Assembly: GCA_947074185.1 (NCBI GenBank)
Contig: CAMTOO010000007.1
Location: 1-42,361, forward strand
Source: an uncultured Negativicutes bacterium
GTDB lineage: Bacteria > Bacillota > Negativicutes > Acidaminococcales > Acidaminococcaceae
Reading direction: 5' to 3'
DNA: 42,361 nt
The notes under the pieces were generated by a model. The model made no database searches. It was not told the origin of the DNA and was given only the letters and a program-made list of their open reading frames with translations. Of this stretch, positions 3,217 to 41,060 are shown in pieces. How positions within the stretch are numbered: the stretch's first letter is position 1; every line of letters starts with the position of its first letter. The translations under genes were made by a program, and so were the position numbers.

Positions 3217-3633
3217 TTATCTACGACGTTGCCATCTTTTATTGCGATTAATAAAATCATCAGCAATACGTTTATTAGCATTTCCACGAGGACCAATTCT
3301 ATAACTTCCATTATCATGTTTAACCGCATCAAACGGAGGATTAACGTGATCAGGACCTGGTCCAACTGCTGGACCTGAAGGATATGCACCTGAACCAATG
3401 CCACCACCTGAAGGTTGTCCACCACTTGGAGCTGCACCTGATCCGATGCCACCACCTGAAGGTTGTCCACCACTTGGAGCTGCACCTGATCCGATACCAC
3501 CACCTGAAGGTTGAGCAACACTTGGTTGTGTACCAACTCTTGCGCCATCACCGATAGCTGCAAATGCTGTGCCCAATACACTAGTAGCTAAAATTAAACT
3601 TAATGTGATACTTCCAATTAATTTCTTTTTCAT
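3217..3633 (-). CDS. Secreted Gly/Ser/Pro-rich repeat protein
   Basis: A 138-residue exported protein of unknown function. Signal peptide: MKKKLIGSITLSLILATSVLGTAFA with a cut near residue 25. Residues about 38-92 are built from a 16-residue repeat, PSGGGIGSGAAPSGGQ, present in two exact protein copies plus a divergent third. The remainder (about 100-138) is polar, with a very basic tail ending NKRWQRRR. No enzymatic motif, no lipobox. The ATG is preceded by GAGGTG. A second frame is also open across the repeat, but it lacks a signal peptide and a good start, so this frame is preferred. The low-complexity mature part suggests a flexible envelope or surface-exposed linker; that is inference. 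It is upstream of the porin in the same direction. Confidence 0.7.
   Translation of the reverse strand: MKKKLIGSITLSLILATSVLGTAFAAIGDGARVGTQPSVAQPSGGGIGSGAAPSGGQPSGGGIGSGAAPSGGQPSGGGIGSGAYPSGPAVGPGPDHVNPPFDAVKHDNGSYRIGPRGNANKRIADDFINRNKRWQRRR
3395..3513. repeat. 48-bp tandem repeat in coding sequence
   Basis: Two copies (3395-3442 and 3443-3490) differ by a single base, and a truncated third follows (3491-3513). A degenerate fragment is visible before them (3371-3394). The unit is a multiple of three, so copy-number change would lengthen or shorten the secreted protein without a frameshift. Confidence 0.85.
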
Positions 3634-7560: not shown

Positions 7561-7835
7561 AAAAAAACTCGCCACTATTAAAAATATAGGGGCGAGGATA
7601 AATTCCACGCGGTACCACCCTAATTTAGTCATTCACGACAAATGACCCTCTCAGCCTCCATCAAGGCATTGGCTTGTAACGAAGCCACTCGTTCTGCTCT
7701 ACATATCAAGCAGACGACTCAAGGATGAGCTATACATACAAACAACACCACTGGTTCGCACCAAACACCAGCTCTCTTAGATAATTAATTTGTATCTTGT
7801 TCCTATCACAGTCTTTGTGGTAATAATATTAAGTT
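7561..7835 (-). promoter_or_regulatory. T-box riboswitch (tRNA-Leu) of leuA
   Basis: The 14-base T-box AGGGUGGUACCGCG is at 7608-7621 on the minus strand. Its UGGU bulge pairs with the ACCA end of an uncharged tRNA with A73. Upstream is a Stem I with the conserved apical GGTGCGAACC. A specifier region reads AGCTCAT, giving a CUC leucine codon (7727-7729) followed by A. The mutually exclusive terminator (7561-7597) has a CTCGCC/GGCGAG stem plus an inner CTAT/ATAG stem and seven U. Leucine starvation should favour the antiterminator and leuA expression. This covers the 326-base gap between leuA and the permease gene. Confidence 0.93.
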
Positions 7836-20173: not shown

Positions 20174-20209
20174 AAAACAACTACAATTTAATAATTGTAG
20201 TTGTTTTTT
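20174..20209 (+). terminator. Terminator of the gltBD operon
   Basis: A 15-bp perfect stem (20174-20188 with 20193-20207), TAAT loop and a run of T, 10 bases after the gltD stop. Confidence 0.9.
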
Positions 20210-20419: not shown

Positions 20420-23400
20420 ATGACAAGTAATCAATTAAAGAAAAAACTTATTATTTTAGCGTTAGCTGTTGGTGCAACATTTACTACTATTCCAAGTGTA
20501 GCATTAGCAGATAGCGGTCAAATCGGATCTGATACTACGCCAATAACTTGGCAATATTACAGTACAGATCCTACAGGGGAAATTGCAAACAACAGAACCG
20601 ATAAATCTGGTTCTAGCGTTTTTGTAGCACAGTTCCATCAAAACTTCAACGATGCTGCGTATGGTGCTTTTGGTAACAAAGGCGGCGCAACTTTAACTTT
20701 AAATAGTATGACTGTTGAAGCTATCCAAGGTAAAGATGGCGTTGGTGCTGATCCTGGCGAAACCGTAAAAGACGGTGGTTTCGGTCAAGACGGTGGTCTT
20801 GCTTCAGGTATGGGGGTATACTCAACAAGCATGAGCAATGCAACTATTGCTTTAAATGGTGCTGTTGATATTAAAGTTATCGGTGGTAAAACTTTTAGCG
20901 ATGCTATGATTGGTACTCAATACCAACATCAAGGTCTCGCTGGTATAGACTACGTTGTTGATATAGCTAACAACGGTGGTGAAGGTGCTAAAGGCGGTGT
21001 TGGCGGTAACGCAATCGCTAGAGGCATCGATGTTTCTAATGGTTCCGGTATTACTATTACTGGTTCTTCCCTATCTGTTTCTGCTACTGGTGAGTTAGGC
21101 GGCCATGGTGGTTACGGTGGTGCTGGTGGTATTGGTAAAACTGGTGATGCAGGAACTGATGGTAAGGACGCTAATAGTTTAACACCTGATAGACTTGGAG
21201 CGCAAACTGGTCAAACAACTGCTCAAGCAGCTCAAAATGGCCGTGGTGGCGAAAAAGGTGGAGATGGCCTCGTTGGTATTGTAGGTAATACTGGTGGTAC
21301 TGGCGGTAAAGGTGCTGATGGTGGTAACGGCGGATATGCTAATGCTACTGGCATTAAAACTGCAAGTATGTCTAATTTAAATGTTGTCGTTTCTAATATA
21401 ACTGTAGATGCTACTGGTGGTAATGGTAATAACGGCGGTACTGGCGGCAAAGGCGGTACTGGCGGTACTGGTGGCGTTGGTGGCGATGGTGGTCAAGGTT
21501 TTGAAGGCGAAATCGGTGGCGATTTAGAAACAGCACAGCTTACAGTAACACCTGATGGTGCTTATGTTGTTTCTGGTGGTCTAACAGCACCAACAATAGG
21601 AGCTGGTTCGGTTGCAGCTGGCGCATCTTATACTGTAACTGCATATTATACACAAAACCAAATTTTATCTGGTACCACTTATGGCGGCGAAGGTGGCGAT
21701 GGTGGCTTAGGTGGCGACGGCGGCGCTGGTGGCGTTGGTGGTACTGGTGGCGACGGCGGTAACGGTGGTAACGGTGGCGTTGCAACTGCTACTGGCTTTA
21801 GTGGTACTGCTGTCCAAGGAAAAATTACTGCTAACGAAGTTGCTGTAACTGCTACTGGTGGTAATGGTGCAAGAGCTGGGTTCGGTGGCGCTGGCGGTGA
21901 CGGTGGCGTTGGTGGCGCTGGCGGTGACGGTGGTAAAGGCGGCGAAGCTGGTAAAAACCAAATTTATTCTGGCACTCAAAAATCAAATTATTCCGTTGAA
22001 CGCGTATATAAAGCAATTCATACTTATAATTCTGTTACTGGTACTTGGTCATATTCGTGGCAACTTCTGACTACACATCCGCAATCAAATACTACAGTAA
22101 CTAACGAGCAAGTTTCTGTTAATAATACTACTCGTACTGATGCTAATGACGGCACAGGCGGTAAAGGCGGTACTGGTGGTACTGGCGGCGATGGTGGCGT
22201 TTCTGGTGAAAACGGTATCAATGGATTTGGTGCTAGTGCTTATGCTACTGGTATAGAGTTAGAAAGTTCTAATGTTGAACTTACTACTTCAAAAATTACT
22301 AGTACTGCTATTGCTGGTAAAGGTCTTGGTTCAATCACTGGTTCTGGTACAGACCTAACAGCTGGTACAGCTGGTGATCCTGCTAGTGTTCCAACTGATA
22401 TCAATGGTACAGCTGGTGGTGCTGGTGGTGCTGGCGGTACTGGTTCTACCTTACTTGGCACTATTGCACAAAGCTTCAACGGTGATGAAGCAATGGCTGT
22501 TGGCTTTGTAAGTACTGGCAACACAACAAATATAATTGGAGCAAGCGGTCTTGAAATTGTTGCTTTAGCACAAGATGGTGCTTCTTACGATAGTGCTGTA
22601 GGTGTCCTCGCTAAGGGTTCAACTGATACTTATAACGTATCTGGTGATTTCAAAATCACTGCAGATGCTATTGGCGATATAGATGCTGGCACCTATATCG
22701 CAAGTTTGACTCGCACAATTACTGATGCTGCTGGTGTCGATATTGAAGGCGGCGTAATGAAAGTTGTTGCAACTGGTGCTCTTGACATCATAGCTTCTGC
22801 TACAAAAGGCGAACATACAAATGAAGCTGATGGTATCTCAGCTGATGGTGCAGAGCTTGACTTCTACAGTGAAGGTCCAATGACAATTCAAGCTTCATCT
22901 GAAAATACTATTGTTGATGATGGTTATGCAAGAGCAATTACTGCTGTAAACAATAAAACAATGTTATTTAAAACTAAAGACCAAGACATTAAAGTAATTG
23001 GTGGCGATAGATCAACTGACCATGCTATGTCTGTTGATGGTGGTTTAACATCATTTGATGCTGGTACTGCTACAATTGGTTTTGAAGGTTATACTACTGC
23101 GAAAAACGGTACTTTAAATTTCAAATCTAACACTACCGTTAAACCAAATGTTTCAGATCCTGGTGATTTCTACATTGAAAACGTGGTACTTACTCTTACT
23201 GATAAATTAGAAACAGTAGAAGTTGAAGGCATTTCAACTTTCAATGCATCAACTGCATACTTCTATGATGATTTAAATGATCTTGATAAACACGATACTT
23301 ACACTTATCGTAAATTCAAAACAAATGATTTAGTTACAGATGGTGACAACACTTTATACATGCGTACTAATGTAAACGGTGCAATGGATCGTCCTGTTGG

Positions 23401-24652
23401 TAACGACATGATTGAAGCAACTAACGTTGGTACTGGTACTGGTACTTATGAAACTTTTGTTTTCGATCAAGGCATGCGTATTGGTTACGACAATATTATG
23501 CAAGCAGACGGAAACTTCATTGATCCTGCTGCTGCTCCTGTAATCCTTGTGAAAAATGCTGGTACAGCGACTGTTAAAGGCGCTGGCGAAACAGTTACTT
23601 TCTACGATAATGGTGTATGGAACTACGAATATGTTGTTACAACTGAAAAAGTTGGTAACGATATCGTTTTAAAATCTATCACTAAAGATCTTTTAAGACA
23701 TTCTACAGCTCAAAAAGTTGCACGTGATTCTTACAAAGTTGCAGCTGGCGCAGCAGTTACATTCTTTGGAAATGATGAAACATTAAGAGACCGTTTAGGC
23801 GATCCTGCTAACTTCACTTATACTTTCGAAAGAGAAAATGGTACTGACGGCGAATCAAAAGGTTCTGTATGGGCTAAATATCTTGGCGGCAAATACGATG
23901 TAGATGGCGTTGACGGTGATGCTAATACAAAATATAATGGTTTCGCTGGTGGTTATGACCACAACATCGGTAATGGCTGGAGATTAGGCCTTGGTTTCCA
24001 ACATGTTAAAGGCGATGCGGATTTCGCTGAAGGTTCTGGCGAAATTAAATCTAACGCAGGTATGCTTTACGGAACTTGGGTTGGCGGAAAAGGTCATTAT
24101 TTAGATATTCTTGGTAAATTCGGTAAAGTAAACTCTGACACTGAAGCATACGGCGGAACAGTTCCACAAAGAATGTATGGTTCATACGGCGGAACAGCTT
24201 TCGGTCTTAGCGCTGAATACGGTTACCATAAAAGATTAAATGATAATTGGTTCATCGAACCAATGGCACGTTTAAGTTGGGTTCGTTTAAGTGGAGATGA
24301 TTATACTGTAAATACATTCGATGGCAACATGGATGTTAGCAATGATACAGTGAATAATCTTATCCTCCGTGGCGGATTCTTAGTAGGAAGACAATTCGGA
24401 AGAGGAAATAGTCTTTACCTCAAATTAGCTATAGCTCATAACTTCGGTGGTGATGCTGATTCTAATATCTATGCTGATGGTAAAAGCATGCTTCACGAAG
24501 AATCTGTTGGTGGAACTAGCTTCGAATACGGCCTTGGTGGAACACACAAATTTAATGATAAATCTAGCTTCTATCTAGACGTTAAACGTTCAAGCGGTGG
24601 TGATATCACTAAAACTTGGGGCGTAAACGCAGGTTTCCGTTTCAACTTCTAA
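20420..24652 (+). CDS. Autotransporter with glycine-rich passenger
   Basis: A 1410-residue type V secreted surface protein. Signal peptide 1-30 (cut after VALA). The passenger, about 31-1145, alternates long glycine runs of the GGxGGxGGDGG type (about 187-690) with beta-strand units of the form AxATGI...IxVxATGG. A non-repetitive region follows (about 690-1145). The C-terminal autotransporter beta-barrel starts near GSVWAKYLGG (about 1148) and ends in RFNF, the expected terminal Phe. The ligand is unknown; adhesion or aggregation is a guess. I chose the ATG at 20420 because GAGGAGG lies at 20407-20413; an in-frame start 30 bases upstream would put that site inside the gene. The gene stands alone with its own terminator. 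Confidence 0.93.
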   Translation: MTSNQLKKKLIILALAVGATFTTIPSVALADSGQIGSDTTPITWQYYSTDPTGEIANNRTDKSGSSVFVAQFHQNFNDAAYGAFGNKGGATLTLNSMTVEAIQGKDGVGADPGETVKDGGFGQDGGLASGMGVYSTSMSNATIALNGAVDIKVIGGKTFSDAMIGTQYQHQGLAGIDYVVDIANNGGEGAKGGVGGNAIARGIDVSNGSGITITGSSLSVSATGELGGHGGYGGAGGIGKTGDAGTDGKDANSLTPDRLGAQTGQTTAQAAQNGRGGEKGGDGLVGIVGNTGGTGGKGADGGNGGYANATGIKTASMSNLNVVVSNITVDATGGNGNNGGTGGKGGTGGTGGVGGDGGQGFEGEIGGDLETAQLTVTPDGAYVVSGGLTAPTIGAGSVAAGASYTVTAYYTQNQILSGTTYGGEGGDGGLGGDGGAGGVGGTGGDGGNGGNGGVATATGFSGTAVQGKITANEVAVTATGGNGARAGFGGAGGDGGVGGAGGDGGKGGEAGKNQIYSGTQKSNYSVERVYKAIHTYNSVTGTWSYSWQLLTTHPQSNTTVTNEQVSVNNTTRTDANDGTGGKGGTGGTGGDGGVSGENGINGFGASAYATGIELESSNVELTTSKITSTAIAGKGLGSITGSGTDLTAGTAGDPASVPTDINGTAGGAGGAGGTGSTLLGTIAQSFNGDEAMAVGFVSTGNTTNIIGASGLEIVALAQDGASYDSAVGVLAKGSTDTYNVSGDFKITADAIGDIDAGTYIASLTRTITDAAGVDIEGGVMKVVATGALDIIASATKGEHTNEADGISADGAELDFYSEGPMTIQASSENTIVDDGYARAITAVNNKTMLFKTKDQDIKVIGGDRSTDHAMSVDGGLTSFDAGTATIGFEGYTTAKNGTLNFKSNTTVKPNVSDPGDFYIENVVLTLTDKLETVEVEGISTFNASTAYFYDDLNDLDKHDTYTYRKFKTNDLVTDGDNTLYMRTNVNGAMDRPVGNDMIEATNVGTGTGTYETFVFDQGMRIGYDNIMQADGNFIDPAAAPVILVKNAGTATVKGAGETVTFYDNGVWNYEYVVTTEKVGNDIVLKSITKDLLRHSTAQKVARDSYKVAAGAAVTFFGNDETLRDRLGDPANFTYTFERENGTDGESKGSVWAKYLGGKYDVDGVDGDANTKYNGFAGGYDHNIGNGWRLGLGFQHVKGDADFAEGSGEIKSNAGMLYGTWVGGKGHYLDILGKFGKVNSDTEAYGGTVPQRMYGSYGGTAFGLSAEYGYHKRLNDNWFIEPMARLSWVRLSGDDYTVNTFDGNMDVSNDTVNNLILRGGFLVGRQFGRGNSLYLKLAIAHNFGGDADSNIYADGKSMLHEESVGGTSFEYGLGGTHKFNDKSSFYLDVKRSSGGDITKTWGVNAGFRFNF
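21005..22470 (+). repeat. Glycine-rich repeat region of the autotransporter
   Basis: Degenerate GGT/GGC-rich repeats coding for GGxGG units, interrupted by similar beta-strand units starting near 21005, 21331, 21776 and 22228, with two weaker ones near 22483 and 22588. Local GC content is clearly higher than in the neighbours. The reverse strand is open in several frames because GGN triplets give CCN; these are not genes. Confidence 0.8.
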
Positions 24653-24663
24653 TTAACAAAATT

Positions 24664-24693
24664 AAAGGCACCTCGTAAGAGGTGCCTTTTTTT
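24664..24693 (+). terminator. Terminator of the autotransporter gene
   Basis: An 11-bp stem (AAAGGCACCTC, 24664-24674, with GAGGTGCCTTT, 24679-24689), GTAA loop and T7. On the minus strand it may also end the convergent ABC transporter gene. Confidence 0.92.
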
Positions 24694-40776: not shown

Positions 40777-41060
40777 AAAAAACGCCCCCATCTGAATTAA
40801 CAGATAGGGGCGACATTAACCGCGGTACCACCCTATTTTGACCTCTTTGTCCCGGATATTTTCCGGTAGCATAACGTGCTTCTACGTCATCAACTACTTT
40901 ATTCATCGATGCAGCTCCTGGGTGAGTTTCACTTAAATGTTGTTAAGGCTTGCACCAACCGCCTTTTCTCTAAGAACATTGCACATAAGCTTTAATCCCA
41001 ATCTCAGCCTTTACCATATTCAAAATATATTGGACATATTTCTAAAAATTTCCTTGCTGT
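40777..41060 (-). promoter_or_regulatory. T-box riboswitch (tRNA-Leu) of the ilv-leu operon
   Basis: The T-box AGGGUGGUACCGCG is at 40821-40834 (minus strand). Stem I shows the apical GGTGCAAGCC and a specifier region GTGAAACTCACCC, read as CUC leucine codon (40924-40926) followed by A. The terminator is an 12-position stem (40783-40794 with 40801-40812, one mismatch) followed by a U-run. Uncharged tRNA-Leu should therefore switch on the whole operon. It fills most of the 411-base gap between ilvN and serA. Confidence 0.95.

Follow-up and report, generated by a model that had tools for sequence, protein, structure and literature searches.

The window analysed here, a 42,361 nt stretch of contig CAMTOO010000007.1 from an uncultured Negativicutes bacterium, contains a large autotransporter gene on the forward strand (20420–24652; Table 1), which runs from an ATG start as one uninterrupted frame for a protein of 1410 aa. 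The gene encodes a type Va (monomeric) autotransporter, an assignment that is supported by the sequence. The C-terminal barrel (residues 1150–1388) matches PF03797 at 141.6 bits against a cut-off of 26 (E 5e-41) and is also matched by TIGR01414 of NCBIfam; in Pfam and NCBIfam at E≤1 the barrel alone was recognized, with no match to a passenger-family model. The surrounding genes are ordinary. The upstream neighbours, including a gltD-like gene, were assigned by inspection of the sequence as glutamate synthase subunits. Downstream are an SbmA/BacA-like ABC transporter, a large gene resembling an inner-membrane pump (assigned from sequence) and an HlyD-like gene. Terminator-like stems follow both the gltD-like gene and the autotransporter gene, and the latter is therefore probably transcribed alone, as a single-gene transcript; seven terminator-like sites were observed in the region against 3.5 expected by chance.

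Elsewhere in the window, a gene for an SLH-porin (1765–2973) fits an outer membrane of the Negativicutes type. A small protein of 138 aa with a signal-peptide-like start (3217–3633, reverse strand) contains 2.9 copies of a 16-residue Gly/Ser/Pro repeat, which corresponds to a 48 bp tandem repeat at 3385–3525 (93% match). There are also two T-box leaders on the reverse strand, at 7585–7818, directly upstream of an isopropylmalate-synthase-like gene, and at 40803–41014. The genome itself (1.57 Mb in 82 contigs) contains 21 autotransporter barrel matches, several of which share a contig (C5, C12, C13, C23, C33 and C48). One of these, an autotransporter of 1496 aa on C33 (7583–12073, reverse strand), has its barrel at residues 1088–1341 and an OmpA-type domain (PF00691) at 1392–1487; because this domain comes after it, the barrel is not at the extreme C-terminus.

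Table 1. Features of the autotransporter locus, in window coordinates. Rung borders were taken from the structure model where it covers them, and those of rungs 0–3 from unit alignments.
Feature	Residues	Position	Strand	Basis or remarks
Terminator-like stem		20174–20207		3' of gltD-like gene, upstream of autotransporter
Autotransporter gene, whole		20420–24652	+	ATG start; listed TTG start (20390) lies upstream
Putative signal peptide	1–30	20420–20509	+	By eye: basic N-terminus, then a hydrophobic core and small residues ahead of Asp
Rung 0, degenerate	88–103	20681–20728	+	Alignment to other units
Insert 0 (23 aa)	104–126	20729–20797	+	Unit alignment
Rung 1, degenerate	127–155	20798–20884	+	Unit alignment
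Insert 1 (42 aa)	156–197	20885–21010	+	In-phase glycine non-significant
Rung 2 (AIARGI...LSVSAT)	198–223	21011–21088	+	Relaxed pattern, unit alignment
Insert 2 (83 aa)		21089–21337	+	Out arm 224–250, loop 251–273, back arm 274–306 (9/11 triplets)
Rung 3 (ANATGI...ITVDAT)	307–332	21338–21415	+	Relaxed pattern, unit alignment
Insert 3 (122 aa)		21416–21781	+	Out arm 333–368, loop 369–421, back arm 422–454 (12/11 triplets)
Rung 4 (ATATGF...VAVTAT)	455–479	21782–21856	+	Model strands 455–463, 466–470, 473–479
Insert 4 (127 aa)		21857–22237	+	Out arm about 480–513 (phase from 487), loop 514–577, back arm 578–604 (9/9 triplets)
Rung 5 (AYATGI...ITSTAI)	607–631	22238–22312	+	Model strands 607–615, 618–622, 625–631
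Insert 5 (59 aa)	632–690	22313–22489	+	Alignment with relatives
Rung 6 onwards and barrel-proximal passenger	691–1094	22490–23701	+	Model up to residue 905
Autotransporter beta-barrel, PF03797	1150–1388	23867–24583	+	Pfam; C-terminal residue Phe
Terminator-like stem, 11 pairs		24664–24689	+	Directly 3' of autotransporter gene

The first-pass annotation described the passenger, between 20980 and 22690, as an alternation of glycine loops with at least four, perhaps six, units of the form AxATGI...IxVxATGG. Such units are present, but the literal consensus is rarer than was claimed, AxATG[I/F] occurring three times (residues 307, 455 and 607) and IxVxATGG once (residue 327). A relaxed pattern (AxAxG[IFVML], 9–16 residues, [IVLM]x[VSAIT]xA[TIA]), picked after the protein had been inspected, matches four units starting at residues 198, 307, 455 and 607 (nt 21011–22312); in 5000 shuffles of the passenger it gave a mean of 0.006 matches and a maximum of one, and four was never reached. 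Degenerate copies at residues 127 (rung 1) and 691 (rung 6) can be added to these four, in agreement with the number first proposed. The four units fall within the span originally given, but the feature as a whole is wider, with inserts from about nt 20729. For a less circular comparison, an HMM was derived solely from three units that belong to two related proteins (described below). Unit 5 scored 11.0 bits with it, and the highest score among 1000 shuffles (630 of which had any match) was 7.0; units 3 and 4 scored just 2.4 and 2.0 bits, respectively, below several shuffles, and unit 2 was unreported. A profile from seven units finds, by construction, the four in this gene and the three of the relatives.

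The sizes of the inserts at successive junctions are 23, 42, 83, 122, 127, 59 and then 6 residues. The glycine runs described in the first-pass annotation are real, with glycine in phase as Gxx triplets at residues 224–250, 274–306, 333–368, 422–454, 487–513 and 578–604 (9, 11, 12, 11, 9 and 9 triplets, respectively). The three longest inserts (2, 3 and 4) are hairpins, each comprising a glycine-triplet arm, a non-repetitive loop of the kind already noted there, and a second arm; within each pair, the arms are near-equal in length (9/11, 12/11 and 9/9 triplets). Shuffling within the insert matched the longest in-phase run in 7, 18 and 10 of 20,000 cases for inserts 2, 3 and 4, respectively. 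For inserts 1 and 5 the in-phase run was non-significant (1637 and 895 of 20,000 shuffles), and in a control stretch (691–1094) it never rose above 2. When the region 181–680 is taken as a whole, the longest run, of 12, is barely over the maximum of 2000 shuffles (11; mean 4.9). The runs of 9–12 triplets in inserts 2–4, many of them GGX, are in-phase triplets of the PE_PGRS type.

Recent slippage is unlikely to account for the arms on its own, since the glycine codons are mixed (mainly GGT and GGC) and the DNA repeats match at only 67–87%. The in-phase glycine may partly stem from expansion of a 9-base unit. Gxx periodicity is also that of collagen, and self-association is common among autotransporters; the arms could in principle form collagen-like or silk-like assemblies between molecules and so cross-link cells in a biofilm. 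We regard this as improbable, given that the in-phase runs listed contain no proline, that the third residues in runs of at least six triplets (overlapping phases both counted) are, besides glycine, most often Asp, Asn, Ala and Thr, and that the arms are tied as hairpins to the rungs of one chain.

The fold was predicted with AlphaFold2 for residues 446–905, from an alignment of one relative and three fragments of the protein's own repeats, and these own-repeat rows helped the model; a model of the whole passenger made without an alignment had a pLDDT of 30.5 and was discarded. The 446–905 model (pLDDT 64.4, pTM 0.67) has three strands per rung to its end. It places strands at the unit positions of rungs 4 and 5, as expected from the beta-solenoid suggested at first, and in rung 6 at 690–699, 703–708 and 710–718. 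In blocks of ten residues, pLDDT is 62–80 for rungs 4 and 5 and mostly 72–96 for residues 691–905, with one block at 67 and one inter-rung loop at 45. The ATGI of the unit lies in strand 1 and the IxVxAT in strand 3, each ATGI...ATGG unit being one rung of the modelled solenoid. That rungs are separated by inserts was also correctly seen; more exactly, the inserts share a single junction, between strand 3 and strand 1 of the next rung. A pertactin-like parallel beta-solenoid passenger is supported for the modelled residues 446–905, as is the position of the inserts at one corner, and rungs 0–3 would be expected to fold like rungs 4–11.

With the model as query, Foldseek found nothing at E≤0.001, the best E value being 0.12. 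When 279 Foldseek candidates were realigned by VIA-align, from which the following Z scores come, the best was Vag8 (7akv; Z 20.2, 2.1 Å over 208 residues) and the second pertactin (1dab; Z 16.9, 2.6 Å over 200 residues), with tailspikes and pectate-lyase-like enzymes ranking next (Z about 13–16). Proteins with polyglycine-II helices are absent among the best 50 realigned matches; this is uninformative, because the arms lacked modelled structure. Arms and loops score pLDDT 28–45, and no ordered arm is therefore predicted; a beta-hairpin at 528–551, in the loop of insert 4, is drawn at low confidence.

This passenger is rare. It was found in two of the 59 genomes of the family, this one (G000) and G006, and the autotransporter barrel in 53 of them (362 matches, summed by hand). 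Three of 380 genomes of the class encode it (G000, G006 and G346), the same three being found by the unit profile at E≤1e-5, and among 398 genomes sampled from the phylum the profile matched G000 only. G006 and G346 represent genera other than that of G000. An initial scan of genome contigs with the protein alone gave no match; with the N-terminal third as query, only the same gene was found in G346 (two matches) and in G006 (one match), and there was a weak match in G012 (E 0.05). Phage and plasmid collections gave no match at E≤0.01 (with the low-complexity filter on for plasmids), and no relative was found in viral contigs. Compared by sequence with solved structures, the whole protein matched through its barrel alone (other rows E 0.04 or worse), the unit profile matched none at E≤10, and a two-row passenger alignment gave 19 rows, the best of which (E 0.02) was taken as chance.

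The G006 relative (contig JAAYAE010000018.1) is cut by the contig end and shares 37% identity over the passenger; with the barrel included, identity is 43% to G006 and 43% to G346. The unit survives alignment with these relatives from two other genera, of which G006 contains two copies and G346 one. The G346 gene (contig C41, 2083–4449) lacks a signal peptide and has a purine stretch resembling a ribosome-binding site just upstream; its product is probably truncated at the N-terminus. The missing signal peptide and the rarity of the passenger in the class (3/380) would be compatible with a decaying or recently expanded gene of unconstrained architecture. This is, in our view, very improbable for a 1410-codon open frame with an intact barrel, the insert and unit of which are retained at 36–43% identity in other genera.

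The length of insert 4 is 127 residues here and 123 and 88 in the two relatives. Its out arm aligns without gaps in all three, and between positions 489 and 502 each triplet has two invariant glycines. In the back arm, one glycine per triplet is kept at 584, 587, 590, 596, 599 and 602; in G346, position 593 is disrupted, the longest unbroken run is four and the placement of the arm differs between alignments A3 and A5. The G006 back arm has ten consecutive Gxx triplets in which x varies and hardly any other glycine occurs, a run reached in none of 20,000 shuffles of the 40 residues before the next rung (a stretch picked post hoc); shuffling of whole inserts reached the in-phase runs of the relatives in 2 (G006) and 12 (G346) of 20,000 cases. 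Loop sequences vary between the relatives, and units and arms are kept. Insert 5 has 59 residues here against about 15 in both relatives (hand count from the alignment). Together with the lengths of insert 4, this indicates that changes fall inside the inserts and that rungs 4–6 stay; further alignment gaps occur later in the passenger, most of them in G346. Conservation of paired in-phase arms in the relatives is supported.

These observations bear on whether the inserts are flexible, as the first-pass annotation had it. The arms could be disordered spacers that extend the loops or shield the rod, the triplet phase being a by-product of repeat expansion; this is a possible but less probable reading, consistent with the low pLDDT and the glycine-rich, low-complexity sequence of the arms and with the differences in insert length between relatives. 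It does not readily account for the ten successive triplets of a relative in which one glycine is held and the remaining positions vary, for arms paired at similar length, or for an out arm that aligns gap-free across relatives. Glycine of period three is more in keeping with ordered polyglycine-II arms than with a loose linker, although in the model these arms are of low confidence.

Vag8 and pertactin of Bordetella are, like this protein, autotransporters with a parallel beta-helix in the passenger. Pertactin carries a short GGXXP loop; neither of the two is known to have long paired glycine-triplet arms on consecutive rungs. The protein described here differs from both in that Pfam matches its barrel alone.

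In Shigella IcsA, the beta-helical passenger has glycine-rich repeats in its N-terminal half (aa 117–307), and a segment that includes them (aa 103–433) is sufficient for binding of a host partner protein in vitro (excerpts of PMC9769942 and PMC3566212). The earlier statement that no named passenger family has such a layout was therefore too strong in this respect. The glycine-rich region spans about 190 aa in IcsA, against about 590 aa here (104–690). The plasmid collection, which may lack icsA, gave no match at E≤0.01 with the low-complexity filter on.

The PE_PGRS proteins of Mycobacterium share with this protein in-phase GGX triplet runs and variable loops; in the excerpted text of PMC9436101 and PMC10216338, loop-joined helices are predicted to form a polyglycine-II sandwich, or 'sail', one edge of which is irregular and made up of variable loops. 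Such sandwiches require a glycine that faces inward in every triplet, and they tolerate the gain or loss of complete arm pairs (excerpts of PMC10216338 and PMC9436101). The glycine pattern of the present protein is of this type. The conserved glycine of the G006 back arm would correspond to the triplet position described as inward-pointing (PMC10216338, excerpt). This protein differs from PE_PGRS in having no PE domain (Pfam, E≤1) and another secretion route, and in that its glycine arms hang on a beta-solenoid, whereas in PE_PGRS they form the whole domain. Bundles of packed left-handed polyglycine-II helices are described for snow flea antifreeze protein, Obg, acetophenone carboxylase and the phage S16 adhesin, and in Obg and acetophenone carboxylase the bundle is part of a larger protein (PMC8409303, excerpt). 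No sequence relation to these was found, the unit profile having matched no solved structure at E≤10, and the packing proposed here is putative. Glycine arms on an autotransporter solenoid were not described in the titles and abstracts among the matches listed by a literature search that covered few subscription journals. The protein is a passenger variant of autotransporters, for which the closest known counterparts are the glycine-rich repeats of IcsA and the PE_PGRS proteins.

The interpretation that we favour, by a modest degree, is a pertactin-like solenoid autotransporter with polyglycine-II arms stacked as a lateral adhesive fin. The barrel would be embedded in the outer membrane, outside of which the passenger would fold as a pertactin-like parallel beta-solenoid. 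The insert-bearing rungs 0–6 form the N-terminal part of the passenger, and the N-terminal end of an autotransporter passenger is the end distant from the membrane; these membrane-distal rungs would carry inserts at one corner, with sizes that rise and then fall along the rod. In the three long hairpins, the arms would most likely be left-handed polyglycine-II helices that stack on their neighbours to give a thin, lens-shaped fin alongside the rod; the variable, partly aromatic loops would form its outer edge and act as a binding surface. As the arms score so low in the model, we only infer that they are ordered and adhesive; the polyglycine-II geometry, the stacking and the binding edge may all apply. 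The likely role would be adhesion to surfaces or other cells, by analogy with IcsA and with the autotransporters of the Negativicute Veillonella parvula, which are its main adhesion determinants (PMC7549365, excerpt); those named in this text are trimeric, in contrast to the monomeric type Va protein described here.

The rise of a beta-helix is about 4.8 Å, as is the spacing of polyglycine-II helices, and successive arms could therefore pack without strain. A more specific and tentative proposal is that the solenoid acts as the template for a polyglycine-II sheet, to which each rung contributes a hairpin at a fixed corner, the arms of successive rungs zipping into a lens-shaped distal fin that exposes a row of variable loops. 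If this is true, the result would be a composite fold in which the solenoid sets the register of the glycine sheet.

If the arms are disordered, this is an ordinary autotransporter with unusual linkers. If they are ordered, the solenoid would keep glycine helices in register by a simple natural design, and this would shed light on the display of variable loops by glycine-rich surface regions, among them those of PE_PGRS and IcsA. The protein adds a rare type of passenger to the diderm Firmicutes, the many autotransporters of which are little studied.
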